Assembly: GCF_027941915.1 (NCBI RefSeq)
Contig: NZ_CP116009.1
Span: 1,116,001 to 1,180,000 of the forward strand
Reading direction: 5' to 3'
DNA length: 64,000 nt
Source of the DNA: Ramlibacter tataouinensis
GTDB lineage: Bacteria > Pseudomonadota > Gammaproteobacteria > Burkholderiales > Burkholderiaceae_C
Both the position numbers and the translations under genes were made by a program. Below, one piece after another: positions 50,207 through 63,689 of the stretch. The number at the start of each line of letters is the position of its first letter. The first letter of the stretch is position 1. The notes under the pieces are model-generated. The model searched no databases and was not told the DNA's origin. It worked only from the letters and a program-made list of their open reading frames with translations.

Positions 50207-51937
50207 ATGAGCACCGAAGCACAAGCCCTGGAAACGACCGACGGCTTCCACTTGGTCATTGACGCGCTCAAGCTCAATGGCATCGACACGATCTATGCCT
50301 TGCCCGGCATTCCGATCACCGACTTCCTGCGCATGGCGCAAGCCGAGGGAATGAAGGTGATCTGCTTCCGGCACGAGCAGAACGCGGGCCACGCCGCCGC
50401 GGCGCACGGCTACCTCACCGGCAGGCCCGGCATCTGCTTCACCGTCTCGGCGCCGGGGTTCCTCAACGGCCTCACCGCGCTCGCGAACGCCACGACGAAC
50501 TGCTTCCCCATGATCCTGGTATCGGGTTCCAGCGAGCGGGAAATCGTGGACCTGCAGCAGGGCGACTACGAGGAGATGGATCAGCTGGCGATCGCCCGGC
50601 CGCTGTGCAAGGCGGCCTACCGCGTGCTCCACGCCGAGGACATCGGGGTGGGCCTGGCGCGCGCCATCCGCTCCGCGCTGTCGGGGCGCCCCGGCGGCGT
50701 GTACCTCGACCTGCCGGCAAAGCTGTTCGCGCAAAGCCTTTCCACGGAAGTCGCCCGCAAGTCGCTGATCGAAGTGGTGGATCCGGCGCCCCGGCAGCTG
50801 CCCGCCCCCGAAGCCGTCGAGCGCGCGATCGACCTGCTCAAGTCCGCCAGCAAGCCGCTCGTGATCCTCGGCAAGGGCGCGGCCTACGCCCGCGCCGATG
50901 CCGAGATCCGCCAGTTCATCGAAGCGACCGGCGTGCCTTACCTGCCGATGTCGATGGCCAAGGGCCTGCTGCCCGACACGCACCCGCAATGCGCTTCCGC
51001 GGCCCGCTCGTTCGTGCTCGCCGAGGCCGACGTGGTGATGCTGGTCGGCGCACGGCTGAACTGGCTGCTCTCGCACGGAAAAGGCAAGACCTGGGGGGCG
51101 GGCTCCCCGAAGGAACCGGCCAGGGCCCGGATCATCCAGGTCGACATCTCCCCGATCGAGCCGGACAGCAACGTCGCCACGGCCGCACCGGTCATCGGCG
51201 ACATCGGCTCCTGCATCTCGGCGCTCAACCGGGCGATCGGCTCCGGCTGGTCCAGGCCGGATGCCGCGTGGACGGGTGCGATCGCCGAGCGCAAGGACAA
51301 GAACCTCACCAGGATGACGGAAACCCTAGCCAAGGACTCGTCACCGATGACGTTCCAGACGGCGCTCTCCGTCATCCGGGACATGGTCAGGGAGCGTCCG
51401 GACGCCATCCTGGTCAACGAAGGCGCCAATACGCTGGACTTCTGCCGCTCCACCGTCGACATGTTCGAGCCGCGCAAGCGCCTCGACGTGGGCACGTGGG
51501 GGATCATGGGCATCGGCATGGGCTACTCGGTGGCCGCCGCGCTGGTCTCCGGCAAACCCGTCATCGCGGTGTGCGGGGACAGCGCGTTCGGCTTCTCCGG
51601 CATGGAGGTCGAGACGATCTGCCGCTACGACCTGCCCGTGTGCGTGGTCGTTTTCAACAACAACGGCGTCTACCGCGGTACCGACGTGAACCCGCGCGGA
51701 ACCGAAGCCGCGCCCACCGCCTTCGTGAAGGACGCCAGGTACGAAATGATGATGCAGGCCTTCGGCGGGGTCGGCGTGCGAGCCGCCACGCGCACCGAGC
51801 TGCGCGCCGCCATCGACGAAGCCGTGGCGAGCGGCAGGCCGACGCTGGTCAACGCCATCATCGACGAGAACGCCGGCACCGAAAGCGGCCGCATCACCAG
51901 CCTGAACCCTTCGGCGGCCAAGAAGAAGCCGGCCTGA
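50207..51937 (+). CDS. oxc: Oxalyl-CoA decarboxylase
   Basis: A 576-residue thiamine-diphosphate enzyme that converts oxalyl-CoA to formyl-CoA and CO2. It matches the E. coli and Oxalobacter enzymes along its length: [36 protein letters not shown] with the catalytic Glu57, [26 protein letters not shown], and the cofactor motif [20 protein letters not shown] with Asp458. The [15 protein letters not shown] stretch is also family-specific. It leads the enzyme part of the oxalate module. Confidence 0.95.
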
Positions 51938-51944
51938 CGCGCAG

Positions 51945-51962
51945 TCCCGGCGCAGGCCGGGA
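51945..51962. repeat. REP-like palindromic element between oxc and frc
   Basis: TCCCGGC and GCCGGGA are perfect inverted arms around GCAG, followed by TCCAG and TTCTTTTC. This matches a common repetitive extragenic palindrome of beta- and gammaproteobacteria (spurious translation GAGRDP). It could weaken transcription between oxc and frc. Confidence 0.6.
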
Positions 51963-51997
51963 TCCAGAGTTCTTTTCTTCGACAGGAGCGGAAAGAC

Positions 51998-53245
51998 ATG
52001 GGCAAAGCTCTCGATGGCGTGAAGATCCTCGACTTCACGCACGTGCAGTCCGGGCCGACCTGCACGCAGCTGCTGGCCTGGTTCGGGGCCGACGTGATCA
52101 AGGTGGAGAAGGCGGGCGAAGGCGACGCCACGCGGGGCCAGCTGCGCGACATCGACGGCGTGGACAGCCTCTACTTCACCATGCTGAACCACAACAAGCG
52201 CTCGATCACGGTCAATACCAAGCACCCGAAGGGCAAGGAGGTGCTCGAGCGCCTGGTCAGGGAGTGCGACGTGCTGGTCGAGAACTTCGCGCCCGGCGCG
52301 CTCGACCGCATGGGCTTTGGCTGGGAGCGCATCCAGCAGCTCAACCCGCGCATGATCATGGCGTCGGTGAAGGGTTTCGGGCCCGGCCCCTACGAGGCCT
52401 GCAAGGTCTACGAGAACGTCGCGCAGTGCGCCGGCGGCGCGGCGTCCACCACCGGGTTCGACGATGGCCCGCCGCTGGTCACCGGCGCGCAGGTCGGCGA
52501 TTCGGGCACCGGCCTTCACCTGGCGCTCGGCATCGTCACCGCCCTGTACCAGCGCAACACCACGGGCAAGGGCCAGCGCGTGCTCGCCGCGATGCAGGAC
52601 GCCGTGCTGAACCTGTGCCGCGTGAAACTGCGCGACCAGCAGCGCCTGGACCGCAGGCACGTCCTGGAGGAGTACCCGCAGTACCCCGACACGGCGTTCG
52701 GCGAGGCCGTGCCGCGCGCGGGCAATGCCTCGGGCGGCGGCCAGCCGGGCTGGATCCTGAAGTGCAAGGGCTGGCAGACGGACCCCAATGCCTACATCTA
52801 CTTCATCACCCAGGCGCCGGTCTGGGAGTCGATCTGCAAGGTGATCGGCGAGGAGCACTGGATCACCGACCCGAACTACGCGACGCCCAAGGCGCGCCTG
52901 CCGCACCTGAAGTCGATCTTCGCCCGCATCGAGGAGTGGACCAAGACCAAGAACAAGTTCGAGGCGATGGAGATCCTGAACCAGTACGACATCCCGTGCG
53001 GGCCGATCCTGTCCATGAAGGAAATCGCCGAGGAACCGTCGCTGCGCGCCACCGGCACCGTCGTCGAAGTCGACCATCCCAAGCGCGGCAAGTACCTCTC
53101 CGTCGGCAACCCGATCAAGCTGTCCGACAGCCCCACGGAAGTCGAGCGCTCGCCCCTGCTGGGCGAACACACCGAGCAAGTCCTCAAGCAGCTCGGCTAC
53201 ACGGAATCGCAGATCGCCGAGATGCGCGAAGCCAGGGTCATCTAA
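51998..53245 (+). CDS. frc: Formyl-CoA:oxalate CoA-transferase
   Basis: A 415-residue class III CoA-transferase that moves CoA from formyl-CoA to oxalate, giving oxalyl-CoA and formate. It opens with [20 protein letters not shown], contains [13 protein letters not shown], and has the catalytic Asp168 in [13 protein letters not shown], matching Asp169 of the Oxalobacter enzyme. The [13 protein letters not shown] and [13 protein letters not shown] segments are typical of Frc. Together with oxc it forms a catalytic cycle that regenerates its own CoA donor. Confidence 0.94.
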
Positions 53246-53262
53246 GGACTAAGGAGCGAACC

Positions 53263-55395
53263 ATGAGCTACGACAAGGCCAGAGTCCGCCAGGTCCTCGA
53301 CGACGTCAGGAAGGCAGGCCGTGATTCGCTGACGGCGCCGCAGGGCAAGCTCATCTGCGACGCCTACGGCATCCGGGTACCGAAGGAAGGCGTGGCCTCG
53401 AGCGCGGCGGACGCCTCGAAGCTCGCCGATTCCCTGGGCTTTCCCGTCGTGATGAAGATCGTCTCGCCGGACATCCTGCACAAGACCGAAGCCGGCGGCG
53501 TGGTGGTGGGCGTGAAGAGTGCGGACGAAGCCGCCTCGGCGTACGAGCAGATCATCGCCAGCGCGAAGAAGTACAAGGCCGACGCGACGATCGTCGGCGT
53601 CCAGGTCCAGCAGATGATCGGGGGCGGCCAGGAAGTCATCGTCGGCGCGATGACGGACCCGAGCTTCGGCAAGCTGGTCGCCTTCGGCCTGGGCGGCGTG
53701 CTGGTCGAGGTGCTCAAGGACGTCACCTTCCGCCTCGCACCCGCGACCCGGGAGGACGCGGCCTCGATGCTCGATTCGATCCAGGCCGCGGAGATGCTCA
53801 AGGGCGTGCGCGGCGGCGACGCCGTCGACCGAGAGGCGCTCACCGACATCATCGTGCGCGTGAGCCAGCTGGTGAGCGACTTCCCGGAGATCGCGGAGAT
53901 GGACCTGAATCCGGTCTTCGCCAGCAAGTCCGGCGCGGTCGCCGCCGACGTGCGCATCGTCGTGAACTTCGAGCCCAAGCCCGCGCGCTACCGGCCCGAC
54001 GAGAAGGACGTGGTCGCGTCGATGAAGCGGATCATGCAACCCAGGGCGGTGGCGGTGATCGGCGCGTCGAACGAGACCGGCAAGATCGGCAACTCGGTCA
54101 TGAAGAACCTGATCAACGGCGGCTACCAGGGCACGATCTACCCGATCCACCCCAAGGAAGACGAGATCATGGGGATCAAGGCCTTCAAGAGCGTCAAGGA
54201 CGTGCCGGGCGAGATCGACGCCGCCGTCTTCGCGATCCCGGGCAAGCTGGTCGCGGCTGCGCTGAAGGAGTGCGGCGAGAAGAAGATCGCCGGCGCCATC
54301 CTGATCCCCTCGGGCTTCGCCGAGACCGGCAACGTCGAGGGCCAGGAAGAGATCCAGCGCATCGGGCGCGAGTACGGCATCCGCCTGATGGGGCCGAACA
54401 TCTACGGTTTCTACTACACGCCGTCCAACCTCTGCGCCACGTTCTGCACGGCGTACGACTACAAGGGCTCCACCGCCCTGTCGTCGCAGTCCGGCGGCAT
54501 CGGCATGGCCATCATCGGCTACTCGCGCTCGGCCAAGATGGGCGTCTCGGCCATCGTCGGCCTGGGCAACAAGTCCGACATCGACGAGGACGACCTGCTC
54601 TTGTTCTTCGAGCAGGACGACAACACCAAGGTGATCGCCCAGCACGCCGAGGACCTGAAGGACGGCCGCGCGTTCGCCGAAGTCGCCAAGCGCGTGTCGA
54701 AGAAGAAGCCCGTGATCATGCTCAAGGCGGGCCGCACCGCGATGGGCGCGGCGGCCGCGAGCTCGCACACGGGCGCCGTGGCGGGCACCGACAGGATCTA
54801 CGACGACGTGCTGCGCCAGAGCGGCGTCGTGCGCGCCAGGAGCCTGCGCCAGCTGCTCGACTTCTCGCGCGGCGTGCCCATCCTCCCCACGCCCAAGGGC
54901 GAGAACGTGGTCATCATCACGGGCGCCGGAGGCTCGGGCGTGCTGCTGTCCGACGCCTGCGTCGACAACGGCCTGAAGCTGCTCAAGCCCATGCCCAAGG
55001 ACCTGGACGAGGCCTTCCGCAAGTTCATCCCGCCGTTCGGCGCGGCCGGCAACCCGGTGGACATCACCGGTGGCGAGCCGCCCATCACCTACATGAACAC
55101 GGTGCGCCTGGGCCTGGAGGACGACCGCATCCACGCGCTCATCCTGGGCTACTGGCACACGATCGTGACACCGCCCATGGTGTTCGCCAGGAACATGGTG
55201 ACCGTGGTCAACGAGATGAAGGAGAAGGGCAAGGTCAAGCCGGTCGTCGCCTCGCTGGCCGGTGACGTCGAGGTCGAGGAAGCCGCGCAGTACCTGTACG
55301 AGAACGGCATCCCCGCCTACGCCTACTCCACCGAGATCCCGGTGGAGATCCTCGGGGCGAAGTACCAGTGGGCCCGGGCCGCCGGCCTGCTGTGA
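53263..55395 (+). CDS. ADP-forming acyl-CoA synthetase (acetate-CoA ligase type, ATP-grasp fusion)
   Basis: A 710-residue fused NDP-forming synthetase in the order beta-alpha. Residues 1-230 are an ATP-grasp domain (LGFPVVMKIVSPDILHKTEA, GVQVQQMIGGGQEVIVGAMT). A CoA-binding Rossmann domain begins at RAVAVIGASNETGKIGNSVM, and the ligase domain carries the phosphorylated His502 in SSHTGAVAGT. It makes an acyl-CoA from acid, CoA and ATP with ADP release. After frc in this operon it may prime oxalyl-CoA or formyl-CoA, starting the Frc/Oxc cycle. AAGGAG is well placed before the ATG. Confidence 0.9.
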   Translation: MSYDKARVRQVLDDVRKAGRDSLTAPQGKLICDAYGIRVPKEGVASSAADASKLADSLGFPVVMKIVSPDILHKTEAGGVVVGVKSADEAASAYEQIIASAKKYKADATIVGVQVQQMIGGGQEVIVGAMTDPSFGKLVAFGLGGVLVEVLKDVTFRLAPATREDAASMLDSIQAAEMLKGVRGGDAVDREALTDIIVRVSQLVSDFPEIAEMDLNPVFASKSGAVAADVRIVVNFEPKPARYRPDEKDVVASMKRIMQPRAVAVIGASNETGKIGNSVMKNLINGGYQGTIYPIHPKEDEIMGIKAFKSVKDVPGEIDAAVFAIPGKLVAAALKECGEKKIAGAILIPSGFAETGNVEGQEEIQRIGREYGIRLMGPNIYGFYYTPSNLCATFCTAYDYKGSTALSSQSGGIGMAIIGYSRSAKMGVSAIVGLGNKSDIDEDDLLLFFEQDDNTKVIAQHAEDLKDGRAFAEVAKRVSKKKPVIMLKAGRTAMGAAAASSHTGAVAGTDRIYDDVLRQSGVVRARSLRQLLDFSRGVPILPTPKGENVVIITGAGGSGVLLSDACVDNGLKLLKPMPKDLDEAFRKFIPPFGAAGNPVDITGGEPPITYMNTVRLGLEDDRIHALILGYWHTIVTPPMVFARNMVTVVNEMKEKGKVKPVVASLAGDVEVEEAAQYLYENGIPAYAYSTEIPVEILGAKYQWARAAGLL

Positions 55396-55430
55396 TCCAC
55401 GACGGGTCTTGGCGGCCCAGGTAGAAGCAG

Positions 55431-57140
55431 GTGCAGGCGCGCGTCATTCCCATCGTCGCGGGCAGCGAGGCCGAACGTGAGCGCAAGCGCGCCGGCCCGA
55501 AGGGCCGCCGCGTGGCCCCGGAGCTGCTCGCCGACGTGCGCGAGACACTGGGCGATGCGCCCCGCCGCCGCGACCTGCTGATCGAGCACCTGCACAGGCT
55601 GCAGGACCGCTTCGGGCATCTCTCGGCGGGGCATCTCGCTGCACTCGCGGAAGAGATGCGCATGGCGCAAAGCGAGGTCTTCGAGGTCGCTTCCTTCTAC
55701 CACCACTTCGACATCGTCAAGGAAGGCGAAACCGCTCCCGCGGCACTCACGGTGCGCGTGTGCGACGGCCTGCCTTGCGAGCTCGCGGGCGCGCAGAAGC
55801 TGCTCGCCAGGCTGCCGGCGCTGCTCGGCACCGCCGTGCGGGTGATCCCCGCGCCGTGCGTCGGCCGTTGCGAGCAGGCGCCGGCCGTCGTGGTCGGCCA
55901 GTACCCGGTGCCTTGCGCGACGGCCGAGAAGGTCGTGGCCACGGTGCGCGCGGGCACGGCCAGGCATGAGCCGCAGGGCTACATCGGGCTATCCCAGTAC
56001 CGAGCGTCGGGCGGCTACCGCGTGCTCGAGGAATGCGTCGCGGACCAGCGCAAGGTCGACGACGTCATTGCGACGCTGGAAGCGTCGGGCCTGCGGGGCC
56101 TGGGCGGCGCCGGTTTCCCGGCCGGCCGCAAGTGGAAGATCGTGCGCGCCGAGCCCGCCCCGCGCCTGATGGCCGTGAACATCGACGAAGGCGAGCCCGG
56201 CACGTTCAAGGACCGGGTGTACCTCGAGCGCGACCCGCACCGCTTCCTCGAAGGCATGCTGATCGCCGCGTGGGCGGTCGGGATCGAGGCGATCTACATC
56301 TACCTGCGCGACGAGTACCACGGCTGCCGCGCCCTGCTCCAGCAAGAGCTCGAGCGTCTGCGGGCGGATCCGCCCTCGGGCGGCCTGCCCAGGATCGAGT
56401 TGCGCCGCGGGGCGGGCGCGTACATCTGCGGCGAAGAGTCCGCAATGATCGAATCGATCGAGGGCAAGCGGGGCATGCCGCGGCTGCGCCCACCGTACGT
56501 CGCGCAGGTGGGCCTCTTCGGCCGCCCGACGCTGGAACACAATTTCGAGACCCTGTACTGGGTGCGCGATTTGCTCGAGCGCGGAGCCGAGTGGTTTTCC
56601 TCCCAGGGCGCCAACGGCCGCCAGGGCCTGCGCTCGTTCTCCGTGTCCGGGCGGGTGAAGAGCCCGGGCGTGAAGCTCGCACCGGCCGGCATCACCATCC
56701 AGGAGCTGATCGACGAGTACTGCGGCGGCATGCTCGACGGGCACCGCTTCTATGGCTACCTGCCGGGCGGGGCGTCGGGCGGCATCCTGCCCGCGGCGAT
56801 GAACGACATCCCGCTGGACTTCGACACGCTGCAGCCCTACGGCTGCTTCATCGGCTCGGCGGCCGTCGTCGTGCTGTCGCACCACGACCGCGCGACCGAT
56901 GCCGCGCGCAACCTCATGCGCTTCTTCCACCACGAGTCCTGCGGCCAGTGCACGCCCTGCCGCGCCGGCACGGCCAAGGCACTGGCCCTCATCGAGCAAG
57001 CGACGTGGGACGTGCCGCTGCTGGCCGAGCTGTCGCAGGTGATGCGCGACGCATCGATCTGCGGCCTGGGGCAGGCCGCACCGAACCCGGTCGATTGCGT
57101 GCTGAAGTATTTCCCGCAGGAACTGGGGGAGTCCGGATGA
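55431..57140 (+). CDS. NAD-linked formate dehydrogenase, fused gamma-beta (NuoE-NuoF type) subunit
   Basis: A 569-residue fusion. Residues 30-160 are a thioredoxin-like 2Fe-2S domain of NuoE/FdsG type with cysteines in CDGLPCELAG and CVGRCEQAP. From about residue 180 a NuoF/FdsB part follows: GLRGLGGAGFPAGRKW (FMN and NADH site), GAYICGEESAMIESIEG and SCGQCTPCRAGT for the 4Fe-4S cluster. It passes electrons from formate to NAD+. The start is a GTG. The stop overlaps the alpha-subunit start (ATGA). In many bacteria these two domains are separate genes. Confidence 0.9.
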   Translation: MQARVIPIVAGSEAERERKRAGPKGRRVAPELLADVRETLGDAPRRRDLLIEHLHRLQDRFGHLSAGHLAALAEEMRMAQSEVFEVASFYHHFDIVKEGETAPAALTVRVCDGLPCELAGAQKLLARLPALLGTAVRVIPAPCVGRCEQAPAVVVGQYPVPCATAEKVVATVRAGTARHEPQGYIGLSQYRASGGYRVLEECVADQRKVDDVIATLEASGLRGLGGAGFPAGRKWKIVRAEPAPRLMAVNIDEGEPGTFKDRVYLERDPHRFLEGMLIAAWAVGIEAIYIYLRDEYHGCRALLQQELERLRADPPSGGLPRIELRRGAGAYICGEESAMIESIEGKRGMPRLRPPYVAQVGLFGRPTLEHNFETLYWVRDLLERGAEWFSSQGANGRQGLRSFSVSGRVKSPGVKLAPAGITIQELIDEYCGGMLDGHRFYGYLPGGASGGILPAAMNDIPLDFDTLQPYGCFIGSAAVVVLSHHDRATDAARNLMRFFHHESCGQCTPCRAGTAKALALIEQATWDVPLLAELSQVMRDASICGLGQAAPNPVDCVLKYFPQELGESG

Positions 57141-59971
57141 ATGCCGTCACACGCGCGGAACGGGCCCAGGTCGATGCGCCGACCGTGACCTTCAAGCTCG
57201 ATGGCCGCGAAGTCACCGCGCCGGCCAACCGCACCCTCATCGAGATCGCCGACGGGATGGGTGTGTCCATCCCGCGGCTTTGCTACAAGCCCGGCCTGGA
57301 CCAGGTGGGCAACTGCCGCTCGTGCATGGTGGAGATCAAGGGCGAACGGGTGCTGGCCGCCAGCTGCTGCCGGTACCCCGCGAACGGCATGGAAGTGAGC
57401 ACCACCAGCGAGCGCGCCGTCGCATCGCAGAAGCTGGTGCTGGAACTGCTGCTCACGGACATGCCCGAGCGCGAGTACACACGCCACAACGAACTCGACC
57501 AGTGGGCGGCCCGGCTGGGCGTGGGCAAGCCGCGTTTCACGCCGCGCCGCCAGGTTTCGGCCGACGTTTCGCACCCGGCCATCGCCGTCAACCTGGACGC
57601 CTGCATCCAGTGCACGCGCTGCCTGCGCGCCTGCCGCGACGAGCAGGTCAACGACGTGATCGGCCTGGCGTTTCGCGGCGAGCACGAGAAGATCGTGTTC
57701 GACATGGACGACCCGATGGGCCTGTCCACCTGCGTCGCCTGCGGCGAGTGCGTGCAGGCCTGCCCCACCGGCGCGCTGATGCCCGCACGCGAGGTCGCGC
57801 TGCAGGTGCCGGACAAGCAGGTGCCTTCCGTCTGCCCCTACTGCGGGGTCGGCTGCCAGCTCACCTACCACGTCAAGGACAACAGGATCCTCTACGTGGA
57901 AGGCCGCGACGGACCGGCCAACCACGGCCGCCTGTGCGTGAAGGGCCGCTATGGCTTCGACTATGCGCACCACCCGCAGCGCTTGACGGTCCCGCTGATC
58001 CGGCGCGCCGGCGTGCCCAAGGATGCCCACGCCGAGCTCGATCCCCAACGCATGATGGCGTTCTTCCGGGAGGCGACGTGGGAGGAAGCGCTCGAACTCG
58101 CCGGCGGCAAGCTGCGCGAACTGCGCGACACGCACGGACCAGCGGCGCTCGCCGGTTTCGGTTCGGCCAAGGGCAGCAACGAAGAGGCCTACCTGTTCCA
58201 GAAGCTGGTCCGCACGGGCTTTCGCAGCAACAATGTCGACCACTGCACCCGCCTGTGCCACGCTTCATCCGTCGTCGCGCTGCTCGAAGGCATCGGCTCG
58301 GGCGCGGTATCGAACCCGGTCATGGACGTGGCGAAGGCCGACGTGGTCATCCTCATCGGCGCCAATCCGACGGTGAACCATCCGGTGGCGGCCAGCTGGC
58401 TGAAGAACGCCATCAAGAACGGCACCAGGCTCATCCTGATGGACCCGCGCAAGTCGGACCTGGCGCGACACGCGCACCTCCACCTGCAGTTCAAGCCCGA
58501 CACGGACGTCGCGATGCTCAACGCCATGATGCACGTGATCGTCCACGAGGGCCTGGTCGACGAGGCGTTCATCGCCAGCCGGACCATCGGTTTCGAAGAG
58601 CTGAAGCAGAACGTGGCCGGCTACAGCCCCGAGGCGATGGCGCCGATCTGCGGCATCGATGCCGAGACGCTGCGCCAGGTCGCACGCCTGTATGCCACTT
58701 CGGGGAGCTCGATGATCCTGTGGGGCATGGGGGTGTCGCAGCACGTGCACGGCACGGACAACGCGCGCTGCCTCATCGCCCTGGCGCTGATGACGGGGCA
58801 GATCGGCCGGCCCGGCACCGGGCTGCATCCGCTGCGCGGGCAGAACAACGTGCAGGGTGCGTCGGACGCCGGGCTGATCCCGATGATGTACCCCGATTAC
58901 CAGCGCGTCGACGCGCCCGGCGCGCGCGAGCGCTTCGAGAAGGCCTGGGGCATGGCGCCCGGCGGCCTGGACGCCCGGCCGGGCCTGACGGTCGTGGAGG
59001 TGATGGACGCCATCAAGGCGGGCACCGTGCGCGGCATGTACATCATGGGCGAGAACCCCGCGATGTCGGATCCGGACGCCAACCACGCGCGCGAGGCGCT
59101 CGCCGCGCTGGAGCACCTGGTCGTGCAGGACATCTTCTTCACGGAGACCGCGTACCTGGCGGACGTGATCCTCCCGGCCAGCGCATTCCCCGAGAAGACG
59201 GGCACCTTCACCAACACGGACCGGATGGTGCAGCTCGGTCGCCAGGCGATCGATCCGCCGGGTGAGGCACGGCAGGACCTCTGGATCATCCAGGAGATCG
59301 CGCGCCGCCTGGGGCTGCCGTGGAACTACTCGCACGTGAGCGCCGTGTTCGACGAGATGCGCGGCACCATGCCCAGCATCGGCGGCATCACCTGGGACCG
59401 GCTGGAGCGCGAGCACGCCGTCACCTACCCGTGTCGCAACGAAGGCGACGAGGGGGAGCCGGTCGTCTTCGTCGAGGACTTCCCGCGCCCGGACGGCCGG
59501 GGGCGCTTCGTGCCCGTCGACATCATCCCCGCCGACGAAAGGCCCGATGCCGACTATCCGATGGTGCTCATCACCGGCCGCCAGCTCGAGCATTGGCACA
59601 CCGGCAGCATGACGCGGCGGGCGAGCATGCTCGATGCCCTCGAACCCGACCCGGTGGCGCTGGTCCATCCGCTGGACATCGAGGCGCTCGGTTGCAGGCC
59701 GGGCGACATCATCACGATCGAGTCGCGCCGCGGCAGCGTGAGCCTGTATGCGCGGGCGGACGACAGTTCCCCGCAAGGCGCAGTGTTCGTGCCTTTCTGC
59801 TACTACGAAGCGGCAGCGAACAAGCTCACGAACCCGGCCCTGGATCCTTTTGCCAAGATTCCCGAGTTCAAGTACTGCGCCGTGCGGGTCGTGCCGGGTG
59901 GCCCCGACCCGCGCCAGACAAGCTTCGGCGGCGGGCAGGCCCTCACGCGGCACCTCACCCCCGCCAACTGA
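57137..59971 (+). CDS. NAD-linked formate dehydrogenase, molybdopterin alpha subunit
   Basis: A 944-residue FdsA/FdhA-type protein. In order it has an N-terminal 2Fe-2S domain (RLCYKPGLDQVGNCRSCMVE), a ferredoxin-like part with two 4Fe-4S clusters (CIQCTRCLRACRDEQ and CVACGECVQACPTGAL), the Mos/FeS segment VCPYCGVGCQLTYHV, and the bis-MGD domains. The metal ligand is Cys374 in CTRLCHASS; selenocysteine is not used. The C-terminal ITGRQLEHWHTGSMTRR binds the cofactor. It oxidises the formate left by Frc/Oxc. The small FdsD subunit and the FdsC sulfurase chaperone are not adjacent. Confidence 0.93.
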   Translation: MNAVTRAERAQVDAPTVTFKLDGREVTAPANRTLIEIADGMGVSIPRLCYKPGLDQVGNCRSCMVEIKGERVLAASCCRYPANGMEVSTTSERAVASQKLVLELLLTDMPEREYTRHNELDQWAARLGVGKPRFTPRRQVSADVSHPAIAVNLDACIQCTRCLRACRDEQVNDVIGLAFRGEHEKIVFDMDDPMGLSTCVACGECVQACPTGALMPAREVALQVPDKQVPSVCPYCGVGCQLTYHVKDNRILYVEGRDGPANHGRLCVKGRYGFDYAHHPQRLTVPLIRRAGVPKDAHAELDPQRMMAFFREATWEEALELAGGKLRELRDTHGPAALAGFGSAKGSNEEAYLFQKLVRTGFRSNNVDHCTRLCHASSVVALLEGIGSGAVSNPVMDVAKADVVILIGANPTVNHPVAASWLKNAIKNGTRLILMDPRKSDLARHAHLHLQFKPDTDVAMLNAMMHVIVHEGLVDEAFIASRTIGFEELKQNVAGYSPEAMAPICGIDAETLRQVARLYATSGSSMILWGMGVSQHVHGTDNARCLIALALMTGQIGRPGTGLHPLRGQNNVQGASDAGLIPMMYPDYQRVDAPGARERFEKAWGMAPGGLDARPGLTVVEVMDAIKAGTVRGMYIMGENPAMSDPDANHAREALAALEHLVVQDIFFTETAYLADVILPASAFPEKTGTFTNTDRMVQLGRQAIDPPGEARQDLWIIQEIARRLGLPWNYSHVSAVFDEMRGTMPSIGGITWDRLEREHAVTYPCRNEGDEGEPVVFVEDFPRPDGRGRFVPVDIIPADERPDADYPMVLITGRQLEHWHTGSMTRRASMLDALEPDPVALVHPLDIEALGCRPGDIITIESRRGSVSLYARADDSSPQGAVFVPFCYYEAAANKLTNPALDPFAKIPEFKYCAVRVVPGGPDPRQTSFGGGQALTRHLTPAN

Positions 59972-60652: not shown

Positions 60653-60958
60653 TTACTTCGTTGCCCGCTCCACATAGCGGGCCAATGCCTCGATCTCCGC
60701 CTGCGTCAGGTGGGTGAACGCCGGCATCTGGCCGATGCCGGTCTTCAGCGCCTGCACCACGCGGGCGCGGTCCGGCTTCAGTTCGTCGAGTGAAGGGCCC
60801 ACGGCGCCTTCGGCGCCTGCGTCCTTGAGCGTGTGGCACAGCGCGCAAGACGGCGTGACCTTCGTGAACAGGATGCGTCCCTCGTCCTCGGCCTGCACGG
60901 AGCAGGCGAGCGAGGCCAGCAGCGCCAGCGGCGCCGCCTTCCAGAAAGATCCCGCCAT
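60653..60958 (-). CDS. sorB: Sulfite dehydrogenase cytochrome c subunit
   Basis: A 101-residue class I cytochrome c with signal peptide FWKAAPLALLASLACSVQA. The heme site is CALCH and the axial methionine is in GIGQMPAFTHLTQ. It accepts electrons from the molybdenum subunit SorA in the periplasm and passes them to the respiratory chain. Its ATG overlaps the sorA stop by one base (TGATG). Confidence 0.9.
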   Translation of the reverse strand: MAGSFWKAAPLALLASLACSVQAEDEGRILFTKVTPSCALCHTLKDAGAEGAVGPSLDELKPDRARVVQALKTGIGQMPAFTHLTQAEIEALARYVERATK

Positions 60959-62163
60959 CAGACCACCGTGATCGGCAGCGCGTGCACCCGCCAGCCGCTG
61001 TTCAGGAAGCCGCCGGCATTCTCCGGCGTCGCCTCGACTTGCCAGTTGAACTGGGTGTCCTGCGCCCGCGAGGCGAGCACATACTGACCCGGCTCCAGCT
61101 TGACCGGCAGCACGAACTGGCGCCAGGCGAAGCGGCCCAGGTCGGGGCCGACGAAGCGGGCCTCCTTCCAGGTCTGGCCGCCGTCCACCGACACGTCGAT
61201 GCGGCGCAGGGCGCGGGTGCCGCCCATCGCCACGCCGTGGATCTGCACCCAGCCGGCTTTCACCGGCCCGGCTTCGGGCGCCGGCCCGTTGATCCAGGAC
61301 TTGACGTCCATCTCCCACACGGCCGGGAAGCTCGGGTCCCCCTTGGTGCCGGGCGGCGACATGCGGTAGCCGGTGCGCTGGATCTTCGCGTCGGTCTCCG
61401 CCGCGGTGAAGGCCAGGCGCTTGACGTACTTGATGTTGTTGACGCCGCTGTAGCCGGGGACGATCAGGCGCAGCGGGCCGCCGTGCGCATGCGGCACCGG
61501 CTCGCCGTTCATCTCCCACGCCAGCAGCGCGTCGTCCAGCGCCTTGATCGGCACCGAGCGCTCCACGATCACGTCCTTCGGATCCAGGCCGGCGGGCAGC
61601 TGCTCGCCGCCGGTCCCGGTGATGAAACGCGCGCCGTCGGCCAGGCCGCCGAGCGCGGCGACCACGTTGCGCAGCGGCACGCCGCTCCAGATCACGCAGC
61701 CGGCGGCGCCGACCTGCCACTTGGTGCCGCTGGGCTTGCCGGCGAAATAGCCGCGGCCATTGCCGGAGCACTGCAGCACCGCGGCGACCGTCTCGATGCC
61801 CAGGGTCTTGAGCTCCGCCACGCTCAGCGTGCGCGGCTGCCGCACGCCTTCGATGGCGACGGCCCAGGCGTCGCGGTTGGCGACGATGGCCACATCCGGC
61901 GCCGGCAGGTTGTTGCGCACGTAGAGCCGCTCGGCCGGCGTGATCACGCTGGTGCCGAAGGCACTGCGCTTCGTCTCCAGCGTGTTGCCGGTGTGCATGA
62001 TCAGGTGATCGGGGTTCTTCCATGCCACGTAGCCAGGCAGGGGCTTGGCCGGCGCGGCGGCGGTCTGCGCCTGCGCCACGCGGGCCAGGCCAACGCTCGC
62101 CAGCGCGGTTGCGCTGCCGGCCAGCAGGCCGCGGCGGGCCAGGTCAGGGGAGTGCGGCTTCAT
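60958..62163 (-). CDS. sorA: Sulfite dehydrogenase molybdenum subunit
   Basis: A 401-residue sulfite oxidase-family enzyme that oxidises sulfite to sulfate. The Tat signal is LARRGLLAGSATALASVGLA. The molybdenum ligand is Cys132 in VLQCSGNGRGYF; other active-site parts are HAHGGPLRLIVPGYSGVNNI and KYVKRL. The C-terminal dimerisation domain (GVAMGGTRALRRIDVSVDGG) is intact. GAGGAGG lies before the chosen ATG; an ATG 60 bases earlier lacks a site. With sorB it forms the periplasmic SorAB complex. Confidence 0.93.
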   Translation of the reverse strand: MKPHSPDLARRGLLAGSATALASVGLARVAQAQTAAAPAKPLPGYVAWKNPDHLIMHTGNTLETKRSAFGTSVITPAERLYVRNNLPAPDVAIVANRDAWAVAIEGVRQPRTLSVAELKTLGIETVAAVLQCSGNGRGYFAGKPSGTKWQVGAAGCVIWSGVPLRNVVAALGGLADGARFITGTGGEQLPAGLDPKDVIVERSVPIKALDDALLAWEMNGEPVPHAHGGPLRLIVPGYSGVNNIKYVKRLAFTAAETDAKIQRTGYRMSPPGTKGDPSFPAVWEMDVKSWINGPAPEAGPVKAGWVQIHGVAMGGTRALRRIDVSVDGGQTWKEARFVGPDLGRFAWRQFVLPVKLEPGQYVLASRAQDTQFNWQVEATPENAGGFLNSGWRVHALPITVV

Positions 62164-62203: not shown

Positions 62204-63418
62204 TCATTGCGCGGCGGCGGCATCGTACTTCATACCGGAGCTGCGCCACTCGGGGAGGCCGCCGCGGAACCAGTACACCTTGGTGTAGCCGGACTTGATC
62301 GCGGCGTGTGCGGCCTTGAAACTCTTCCAGCACTCGGGGCCGTTGCAGGCAAATACCAGCTGCGCGTTCTTGTTGGGCCCCAGCTTCGCCACCTCGAACT
62401 TGTCCAGCTTCGCATCGAAGTCGGCGTCCTTCGCGCTCTTCTCGACATAAGGCACCAGCACGGCGCCGGGCACGTGGCTGGCCTTGAATTCGGCCTCGGT
62501 GCGGGTGTCGACGTAGGTGGCGCCGTCCTGCATCAGCTGCGCCACGGCCTTGGCGTCGACCACGGTCGCACCAGGCAGCGCCCGGGGCGTGAAGTAGCCC
62601 AGCGTCGCCACGTACTTGTAGTCCTCCGACTTGTGCGCCACCGCCTTGGTGCTCTCACCGCGCAGCAGCGCGGCGAACTGGGGGGCCTCGGCCAGCGCGA
62701 CCTGCAGCGCCTCGGCACCCGGCCTGGCGCCCTCCTTGATCGCGAGGCTCAGGCCCGGCACCGGCTTCGACTCCATGATGGCCTTGATCGGCTCGCCGGC
62801 CGTCACCCAGCGGTCGAACACCGCCTTCTCCACGCCCACCACGTCGCAGCGGCGCACCTGCAGGCAGGGCAGCAGGGCGTCCTGATAGCGCGTGTCGTAG
62901 ATCGAGGCGAAATGGCGCTTGATGGTGGTGTTGGCGGCGTTCACCTCGCCGCGGATCAGGTAGGTCACCACGCTGTCCTGCAGCGGCAGCCCGAGGCGCT
63001 TGCCCTGGGCCTGCGCCAGGTTGTTGACCGGGCTGTCCTTGGGTACGACCAGCACCGCCTGCACCGGCTTGTCCAGGCCCAGCACCGGCTGGTAGCCATA
63101 GCGCACGGCGCTGCCGACCACGTGGGCCGGGCCGACAAAGACGTCGTGAATGCCGGCGCGGGTGGCGCCGAGGTCCGCCGTGGCATCGCTGGACAGCACG
63201 ATGTCGATGCCGGCGACCTGCTGCTTGCGCAAGGCCTGCTCCACCGCGGCGCGCCAGGCGCTGTACAGCGCAAAGCGCGACTGCTCGCTGCTGTCACCCG
63301 GGTTGACCAGTACCCGCAAGGTGCCGGGCGTGCTGCCGGCGGGCTGCGCCGCGGCTCCAGACGAGGTGAGTGCCGCGCCCAGCACGGCGGCGAGGACGGC
63401 TCCATCCCATGGCTTCAA
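62204..63418 (-). CDS. PhnD-like periplasmic binding protein fused to a rhodanese domain
   Basis: A fusion of about 404 residues. After a signal peptide (WDGAVLAAVLGAALTSSGAA) comes a PhnD-like phosphate/phosphonate-type binding domain (TLRVLVNPGDSSEQSRFALY, DVFVGPAHVVGSAVRYGYQP, VVPKDSPVNNLAQAQGKRLG). From about residue 290 a rhodanese domain follows, with YVDTRTEAEFKASHVPGAVL and the catalytic cysteine loop FACNGPECWKS (Cys358). A TTG with AGGGAGA upstream is the most likely start; an in-frame ATG 54 bases earlier would place 18 residues before the signal. It precedes sorA by 40 bases, so a role in periplasmic sulfur handling is inferred. Confidence 0.8.
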   Translation of the reverse strand: MKPWDGAVLAAVLGAALTSSGAAAQPAGSTPGTLRVLVNPGDSSEQSRFALYSAWRAAVEQALRKQQVAGIDIVLSSDATADLGATRAGIHDVFVGPAHVVGSAVRYGYQPVLGLDKPVQAVLVVPKDSPVNNLAQAQGKRLGLPLQDSVVTYLIRGEVNAANTTIKRHFASIYDTRYQDALLPCLQVRRCDVVGVEKAVFDRWVTAGEPIKAIMESKPVPGLSLAIKEGARPGAEALQVALAEAPQFAALLRGESTKAVAHKSEDYKYVATLGYFTPRALPGATVVDAKAVAQLMQDGATYVDTRTEAEFKASHVPGAVLVPYVEKSAKDADFDAKLDKFEVAKLGPNKNAQLVFACNGPECWKSFKAAHAAIKSGYTKVYWFRGGLPEWRSSGMKYDAAAAQ

Positions 63419-63689
63419 CTTGTTCTCCCTGACTGCTGCGAGTGCCCCGCTCGGGAGCCCTGCAGCTTGCATTTCCTAACGCTTGTAGTGTCGAAAATAG
63501 CATGGGCTTGGCAGCGCGACAGGGCATTTGGTCGCGCCGAAGTTAAGGAAAAGGCTTACGAAGTCCGGCACCAGGTGCCGCGCCATGCCCTGCGGACATA
63601 CTTGACAGCGCCGGCGCAAGACCTGCTGCCTCAGCGGCGGTCGCCGTCCGGCTGTCTTCGTCAACCCATCAGCTCACGGGAGAAGGAAG

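Follow-up and report, generated by a model that had tools for sequence, protein, structure and literature searches.

A periplasmic binding domain fused to a two-cysteine rhodanese beside the sorTU genes of Ramlibacter tataouinensis: a candidate sulfur-sensing or relay module

Among the described systems closest to the protein analyzed here are the sensor proteins for arsenic oxyanions. AioX, ArrX and ArxX act as sensors at the head of regulatory systems whose genes lie next to those of molybdoenzymes, and AioX and ArrX are binding proteins that start the signalling chain controlling the neighbouring molybdoenzyme (PMC5908839). The R. tataouinensis protein shares with them a binding-protein fold and a gene position near an oxyanion-handling molybdoenzyme (PMC5908839), but differs in the addition of a rhodanese domain, in a ligand pocket of which, as judged by eye, only the equivalent of Ser161 is kept, and in the lack of a sensor kinase gene adjoining it in the window, as we call the whole 64,000-nucleotide stretch of DNA that was analyzed. 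In Agrobacterium tumefaciens GW4, an arsenite chemoreceptor (MCP) is encoded in the arsenic island, a loose parallel only, as this MCP binds arsenite itself (PMC5335332). On the rhodanese side, the single-domain proteins PspE and GlpE also consist of a rhodanese domain, PspE being periplasmic (PMC2593051), and the TsoB selenoproteins are given with a UxxxxU motif (PMC13188914). Concerning the enzyme encoded next to the fusion, a term search of the SorT/SorU structure paper (PMC4760952) returned neither the word rhodanese nor thiosulfate.

The fusion gene and the adjoining sorTU pair

The features of the locus relevant to this analysis were the following:

62204..63418, minus strand: PhnD-type/rhodanese fusion gene, 404 amino acids, TTG start (open reading frame, Pfam and start context)
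63425..63429, minus strand: GGGAG, likely ribosome-binding site for the TTG start (judged against the context of the ATG in the L041 orthologue)
63344..63418, minus strand: likely Sec-type signal peptide, approximately residues 1-25 (by eye; low model pLDDT there)
62687..63280, minus strand: PhnD/AioX/ArrX-type periplasmic binding domain (Pfam, residues 47-244; ArrX fold match, residues 32-277)
62240..62554, minus strand: rhodanese domain, residues 289-393 (Pfam; fold matches 3tp9 and 6mxv)
62330..62347, minus strand: codons of the CNGPEC loop (Cys358 at 62345-62347, Cys363 at 62330-62332; both in 68/68 fusions)
60958..62163, minus strand: sorT, catalytic subunit of a molybdenum sulfite dehydrogenase, 40 bases 3′ of the fusion gene (NCBIfam NF052247, 642.2 bits, cut-off 570)
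60653..60958, minus strand: sorU, c-type cytochrome (NCBIfam NF052248, 108.7 bits, cut-off 100); its start overlaps the sorT stop (TGATG)

The preliminary description of this locus had proposed a single protein carrying a PhnD-type binding domain and a rhodanese, and its reading frame, strand and coordinates proved correct. Both Pfam domains scored over their cut-offs: Phosphonate-bd (PF12974) reached 47.1 bits (cut-off 27) on residues 47-244, and Rhodanese (PF00581) reached 59 bits (cut-off 22.2) on residues 289-393. The rhodanese domain is complete, covering profile positions 2-101 of 102 and retaining the loop cysteine. Cys358 lies where it had been placed, and a second cysteine, Cys363, is found in the same loop, CNGPECW. 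The two-domain layout is common to 68 non-redundant homologues, which argues against a chance arrangement. The TTG at 63418, also claimed at the outset, is likely the start of the gene, since GGGAG lies 7 bases upstream and its context, CAGGGAGAACAAG-TTG-AAG, resembles CAGGGAGAACCAGG-ATG-AAG in the L041 orthologue; the alternative is an in-frame ATG at 63472, the start given by the mechanical call. Judging from its N-terminal residues, the protein is probably exported to the periplasm.

The fusion had been placed just before sorAB. Sulfite dehydrogenase genes do lie directly downstream, but they are sorTU, not sorAB: the pair scored over the cut-offs of SorT and SorU (Sinorhizobium meliloti type), whereas the SorA model gave only 185.3 bits (cut-off 600) on the catalytic gene. 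The 40 bp spacing and shared strand suggest that the fusion is cotranscribed with sorT and sorU, heading a compact operon. On its other side there is a divergent glyoxalase-family open reading frame cut by the window end. In agreement with the preliminary description, no ABC permease or transporter gene was seen by eye among the nine genes called between 50 and 64 kb, where the window ends. Beyond sorTU, at window positions 50207-59971, an oxalate-to-formate-like set was noticed by eye (oxalyl-CoA decarboxylase-like, CoA transferase-like and CoA ligase-like genes), followed by an NAD-type formate dehydrogenase.

Distribution, conserved residues and fold of the family

Pooling of the searches yielded 73 fusions, reduced to 68 after the removal of five near-identical rows. 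In the named-genome search, the fusion occurred at 58/69 loci and a stand-alone rhodanese at 11/69, the named carriers of the fusion including Ramlibacter, Caenimonas, Hydrogenophaga, Variovorax, Roseateles, Rubrivivax, Noviherbaspirillum and Undibacterium. Of 300 genomes sampled evenly across the window's order, 26 gave a match, 15 of them with a full-length fusion; within this sample, none of the eight other genomes of the window's own family had the fusion at 1e-15. Across the phylum (398 genomes), the sole full-length match was the window's own, so that within the genomes sampled the fusion does not extend beyond the window's order. The plasmid collection gave matches in 11 records, with query coverage of 53% at best and never as high as 80%.

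All 68 fusions preserved C358, C363, W364, D304, R306, Y324, S328, K330, D339, R385, P389 and W391 in the rhodanese part, together with the linker T277-P278 and P221 of the binding domain, while S149 and P97 were kept in 67/68. The loop reads CNGPECW in the window and CNGAECW or CDGTxCW in other members. The related-locus search used CNGPECWK among its six patterns, and loop conservation there is therefore partly due to selection; both loop cysteines were also kept in L013-L022, 10 fusions that came from a search with the whole protein. A second cysteine pair, C185/C191, is present in the binding domain (codons at window positions 62846-62866), each cysteine occurring in 26/68 fusions, a frequency equal to the size of the 26-row clade that holds the window protein; it is possibly a clade-specific disulfide. 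At another locus (L133:1956-3912), a rhodanese-like gene of 219 amino acids was found directly upstream of the fusion gene, on the same strand and 106 bases apart.

The canonical active loop of rhodaneses is CxxGxR. The fusion departs from PspE and GlpE at precisely this point, presenting CNGPECW with two invariant cysteines instead, and ordinary thiosulfate sulfurtransferase activity thus cannot be assumed. The best NCBIfam matches of the C-terminal domain were TIGR03865 PQQ_CXXCW (52.5 bits, cut-off 128.05) and NF045694 TsoB (57.3 bits, cut-off 805), both far under their cut-offs. The UxxxxU spacing given for TsoB is that of C358xxxxC363 (PMC13188914), and selenocysteines at this same spacing suggest that both C358 and C363 may be reactive, forming a pair rather than a lone sulfurtransferase cysteine.

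The structure model, built from an alignment of 61 of the 68 family members, presented a mean pLDDT of 91.8 and a pTM of 0.86, values suggesting that even the predicted relative placement of the two domains has some confidence. The top fold match of the binding domain was ArrX in its sulfate-bound entry 6x8w (Z 22.7, rmsd 3.1, 241 residues aligned), followed by HtxB and PtxB (Z ~21) and AioX (Z ~20), whose Z scores are near ties with that of ArrX; the rhodanese part matched 3tp9 (Z 15.5) and 6mxv. The sequence profile of the binding domain placed PtxB first and then ArrX in the PDB, and AioX was absent among the 27 PDB sequences of this search. When the AioX pocket (Tyr88, Cys106, Tyr131, Ser161, Ser163, His192 and Asp210) was compared by eye through the ArrX alignment, only Ser161 had an equivalent, S149. 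Since the arsenic-sensor pocket is not kept except for this serine, the ligand of the fusion cannot be named from the fold.

These matches bear on the possibility that the protein is an ordinary substrate-binding component, with an added rhodanese domain, of an ABC importer for phosphonate, phosphite or sulfonate that is encoded at a distance. The Pfam match points in this direction, as do the fold and PF12974 membership shared with PtxB, HtxB and PhnD, the rank of PtxB as best PDB match by profile, and the closeness of the PtxB and HtxB folds, which is nearly that of ArrX. Against it, the PhnD equivalog model (TIGR03431) gave 13.8 bits (cut-off 261.1) and TIGR01098 gave 20.8 bits (cut-off 112.05), no permease or other transporter gene was seen by the fusion in the window, and the attached rhodanese, foreign to PtxB, HtxB and PhnD, retains its two loop cysteines in all 68 fusions, as does the linker its T277-P278. 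We regard such a transport role as very improbable.

Recurrence beside sulfite dehydrogenases

The neighbourhood claimed for the window recurred in other genomes. A sulfite dehydrogenase gene pair directly adjoined 21/68 fusions, and one more (L079) had it within three genes. All 22 catalytic subunits were scanned, revealing 14 of the SorT and eight of the SorA type, with scores below cut-off for SorT at L051 (567.2/570) and for SorA (439.8/600) and the cytochrome SorB (87.8/93) at L088; the cytochrome beside the dehydrogenase was scanned in 7/22 cases and otherwise assigned by cluster. Four arrangements were observed: an operon with the fusion first (the window, L040, L041, L043, L050, L051, L052, L054, L080 and L083), a convergent one (L071, L074, L078, L079 and L082), a divergent one (L069, L070, L073, L075, L077 and L085), and one with the fusion last (L088). 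A sulfite-dehydrogenase-like gene lying four genes off at L065, 34% to SorT, was counted as not adjacent. On a quick tree of the fusions, Sor adjacency needed 10 changes of state, indicating that the link was gained or lost repeatedly.

In the 36 further fusion genomes, SorT scored over cut-off elsewhere in nine and SorA in two, with one additional SorA at 546 bits, whereas the SorT model found nothing at 1e-20 in the 10 genomes of L013-L022. In total, a clear SorT or SorA was consequently present in 34/68 fusion genomes, 22 of which have the Sor genes by the fusion, and absent from the other 34/68, some of these assemblies being incomplete; the complete chromosome of Ramlibacter terrae (L039) carries the fusion with no clear SorT or SorA. 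Fusions occurring apart from sulfur genes, together with an inactive rhodanese, had been named as what would refute the original reading; fusions with no visible tie to a sulfite dehydrogenase do exist.

The even order sample was examined from the side of the enzyme as well. SorT was over cut-off in 17/300 genomes, and only the window's own (1/17) had the fusion, the remaining 16/17 being unlike the window locus in this respect. Co-occurrence with SorT was rejected as general evidence, because SorT was found in 1/15 genomes with a full-length fusion versus 16/285 others and because the eight same-family genomes had no fusion. Taking together the 34/68 fusion genomes lacking a clear SorT or SorA and the single fusion among 17 SorT genomes, the link with sulfite oxidation is real in some clades, yet optional and not general.

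These data weigh on the proposal that the fusion acts enzymatically as a partner of SorTU, its binding domain capturing thiosulfate or another sulfur compound and its rhodanese passing sulfane sulfur through C358 and C363 with release of sulfite for SorTU or, in reverse, excess sulfite being captured as thiosulfate. In its favour are the adjacency in four arrangements with 10 state changes, the share of clear SorT or SorA genomes with Sor genes at the fusion (22/34), and the fact that the window fusion lies with the enzyme and without a receptor. The PF03601 protein encoded beside seven stand-alone relatives would also point to sulfur oxyanions, if this family exports sulfate or sulfite as we take it to do. 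However, the proposal has to accommodate the fusion genomes without a clear SorT or SorA, R. terrae included, the SorT genomes without the fusion and the non-canonical rhodanese loop, and it leaves the chemosensory neighbours presented below unexplained. We consider it rather unlikely. Its stricter form, contained in the preliminary description, that the fusion mainly supplies sulfite to the enzyme, was not upheld in view of the genomes without SorT or SorA, the sensor and uptake folds, and the pilGHI and chemoreceptor or kinase neighbours.

Alternatively, the fusion could serve a periplasmic dehydrogenase and its cytochrome c as a helper in maturation or redox reactions, in the manner of the XoxJ/PedG binding proteins and the rhodanese PP_2666 beside PQQ alcohol dehydrogenases. 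The ped and xox clusters do pair a binding protein with no known transporter and a rhodanese-domain protein with a periplasmic dehydrogenase and a cytochrome c, and XoxJ may bind partly folded enzyme (PMC12997753); moreover, the fusion's rhodanese matches TIGR03865 PQQ_CXXCW, although below cut-off. On the other hand, 16/17 SorT genomes of the sample manage without the fusion, PedG belongs by annotation to another family, that of the amino-acid-type binding proteins (PMC12997753), and the pilGHI and MCP neighbours would again be left unexplained. Such a helper function seems improbable.

Chemosensory neighbours and a possible sensing role

Other members of the family are encoded with chemosensory genes. 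In family f44 of the window's order, a fusion orthologue was matched at 1e-50 in 53/117 genomes and had no match in 64/117. The pilGHI count was based on the 30 best loci of this family, leaving 22 further matching genomes outside it, and all 28 close orthologues among them (58-100% identical, from five genera) had the fusion directly ahead of pilG, at a distance of 2-163 bases, with pilH and pilI next in line (L134:7920-16999; L139:8410-9597 onward; L173-L200). pilG was missing at 2/30 examined loci, where the fusion is 33-34% identical, and it was likewise not beside the fusion in a third distant member (L142). Where the flanks reach far enough, pilJ and chpA come after pilGHI: at L134, Pfam identified pilJ (PF13675, MCPsignal) and then a ChpA-like protein, and members of the same pilJ/chpA clusters follow at L139 and L140 by cluster assignment. 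An apparent fusion of the protein to PilG at L194 and L197 was discarded, as the open reading frame lists showed that the extra open frame lies upstream of the gene.

A similar association was observed among the stand-alone rhodanese relatives, which are up to 58% identical to the rhodanese domain of the fusion and numbered 41 after two near-identical proteins were removed from 43. An MCP gene lay immediately downstream on the same strand in 21/41 and a PAS-containing sensor kinase gene immediately downstream in 2/41 (L149 and L162), so that in 23/41 the gene right after the rhodanese encodes a chemoreceptor or a sensor kinase. In two more (2/41), the MCP gene was immediately upstream on the same strand; seven (7/41) had a PF03601-type membrane protein downstream, and nine (9/41) had none of these partners. 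MCP and PF03601 assignments were made by cluster and our own HMM, with Pfam run on four MCP partners and one PF03601 protein. The two-gene unit in which an MCP gene directly follows that of a small CxxxxCW rhodanese, itself probably exported, is found at L097:7908-10152, L101:7914-10136, L102:7932-10607, L143:6779-9012 and others. As the genes upstream vary by locus (12 loci, names by eye), the rhodanese/MCP pair itself appears as the conserved unit. Its carriers include records named Sulfuriferula, Thiomicrospira, Hydrogenophilales, Thiotrichales and Bradyrhizobium, and the named carriers of stand-alone proteins presumably span alpha-, beta- and gammaproteobacteria.

A second conserved setting is that of the CxxxxCW rhodanese followed by the PF03601-type membrane protein (L144:8795-12449, L145, L146, L150, L153, L154 and L156), with two further genes (clusters c10 and c16) following in several loci. 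A TPxxLxGAxxVDA-like stretch occurs just after the signal peptide in most stand-alone proteins and after the binding domain in the fusions, and for this reason the fusion looks like a binding domain set before a whole stand-alone protein. A near-single origin of the fusion, read from three changes on the rhodanese tree, was considered weak given the few columns and several long branches. An HK/RR pair near fusions L075, L077, L081, L085, L091 and L092 was not counted, as it probably reflects the shared synteny of related genomes. Binomial figures take no account of kinship and use rough null models, and no weight was placed on them.

What these neighbours, namely sulfite dehydrogenases, the PF03601 protein and the chemoreceptors found in sulfur bacteria and elsewhere, have in common is inorganic sulfur, and on this basis we favour the reading of the fusion as a periplasmic non-transport sulfur-sensing or relay module, to which we give slightly less than an even chance. 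The fusion would be made together with SorTU, as suggested by the spacing and shared strand of their genes. Once exported, it would present a two-lobed anion-binding domain and a rhodanese-fold domain with the redox-capable pair C358/C363. A small sulfur anion, e.g., sulfite or thiosulfate, would bind the cleft and/or react with the cysteine pair, giving a persulfide, an S-sulfonate or an opened disulfide on C358/C363. By analogy with the relatives, the loaded fusion might then be read by a receptor in the membrane, whether MCP, PilJ or sensor kinase, much as AioX is thought to be by AioS, and the cell would move away from, or adapt to, the compound removed by SorTU.

Several observations speak against sensing: the window fusion sits with an enzyme and has no adjoining receptor gene, none being seen beside the fusions at the Sor-linked loci either; the AioX pocket is, by eye, not kept apart from S149; the best sequence match of the binding domain is PtxB, an uptake protein; 7/41 stand-alone relatives pair with the PF03601 protein instead and 9/41 with none of these partners; and in family f44 the distant fusions have no pilG beside them and 64/117 genomes gave no match. 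Elsewhere in the window genome there are 11 MCP signalling domain matches, including one in a PilJ-type frame of 824 residues; these distant proteins could be partners of the fusion, although nothing ties them to its gene. From the analogy with its relatives, we infer that the window protein may keep their sensing role.

A wider proposal, possible but held with more reserve than the sensing or relay reading of the fusion, is that periplasmic rhodanese-like proteins with the CxxxxCW motif, whether stand-alone or joined to a PhnD/AioX-type domain, form an undescribed class of sulfur sensors. Through them, inorganic sulfur in reduced or toxic form (sulfite, thiosulfate, persulfide) would be reported to chemoreceptors, sensor kinases and the Pil-Chp twitching system, the window protein being a version recruited to sulfite oxidation. 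Among the titles and abstract openings of the open-licence literature, no description of the fusion, of the rhodanese/MCP pair or of such a receptor partner was found. If the proposal is true, taxis to sulfur compounds would have a dedicated molecular input. Non-transport binding proteins with a sensing function are known for arsenic beside arsenic molybdoenzymes, and the fusion family could be their sulfur counterpart, one that would carry a built-in reactive cysteine pair and would connect chemosensing to the detoxification of sulfite. The rhodanese/chemoreceptor pair and the fusion before pilGHI offer a direct and cheap entry to inorganic sulfur sensing in bacteria.
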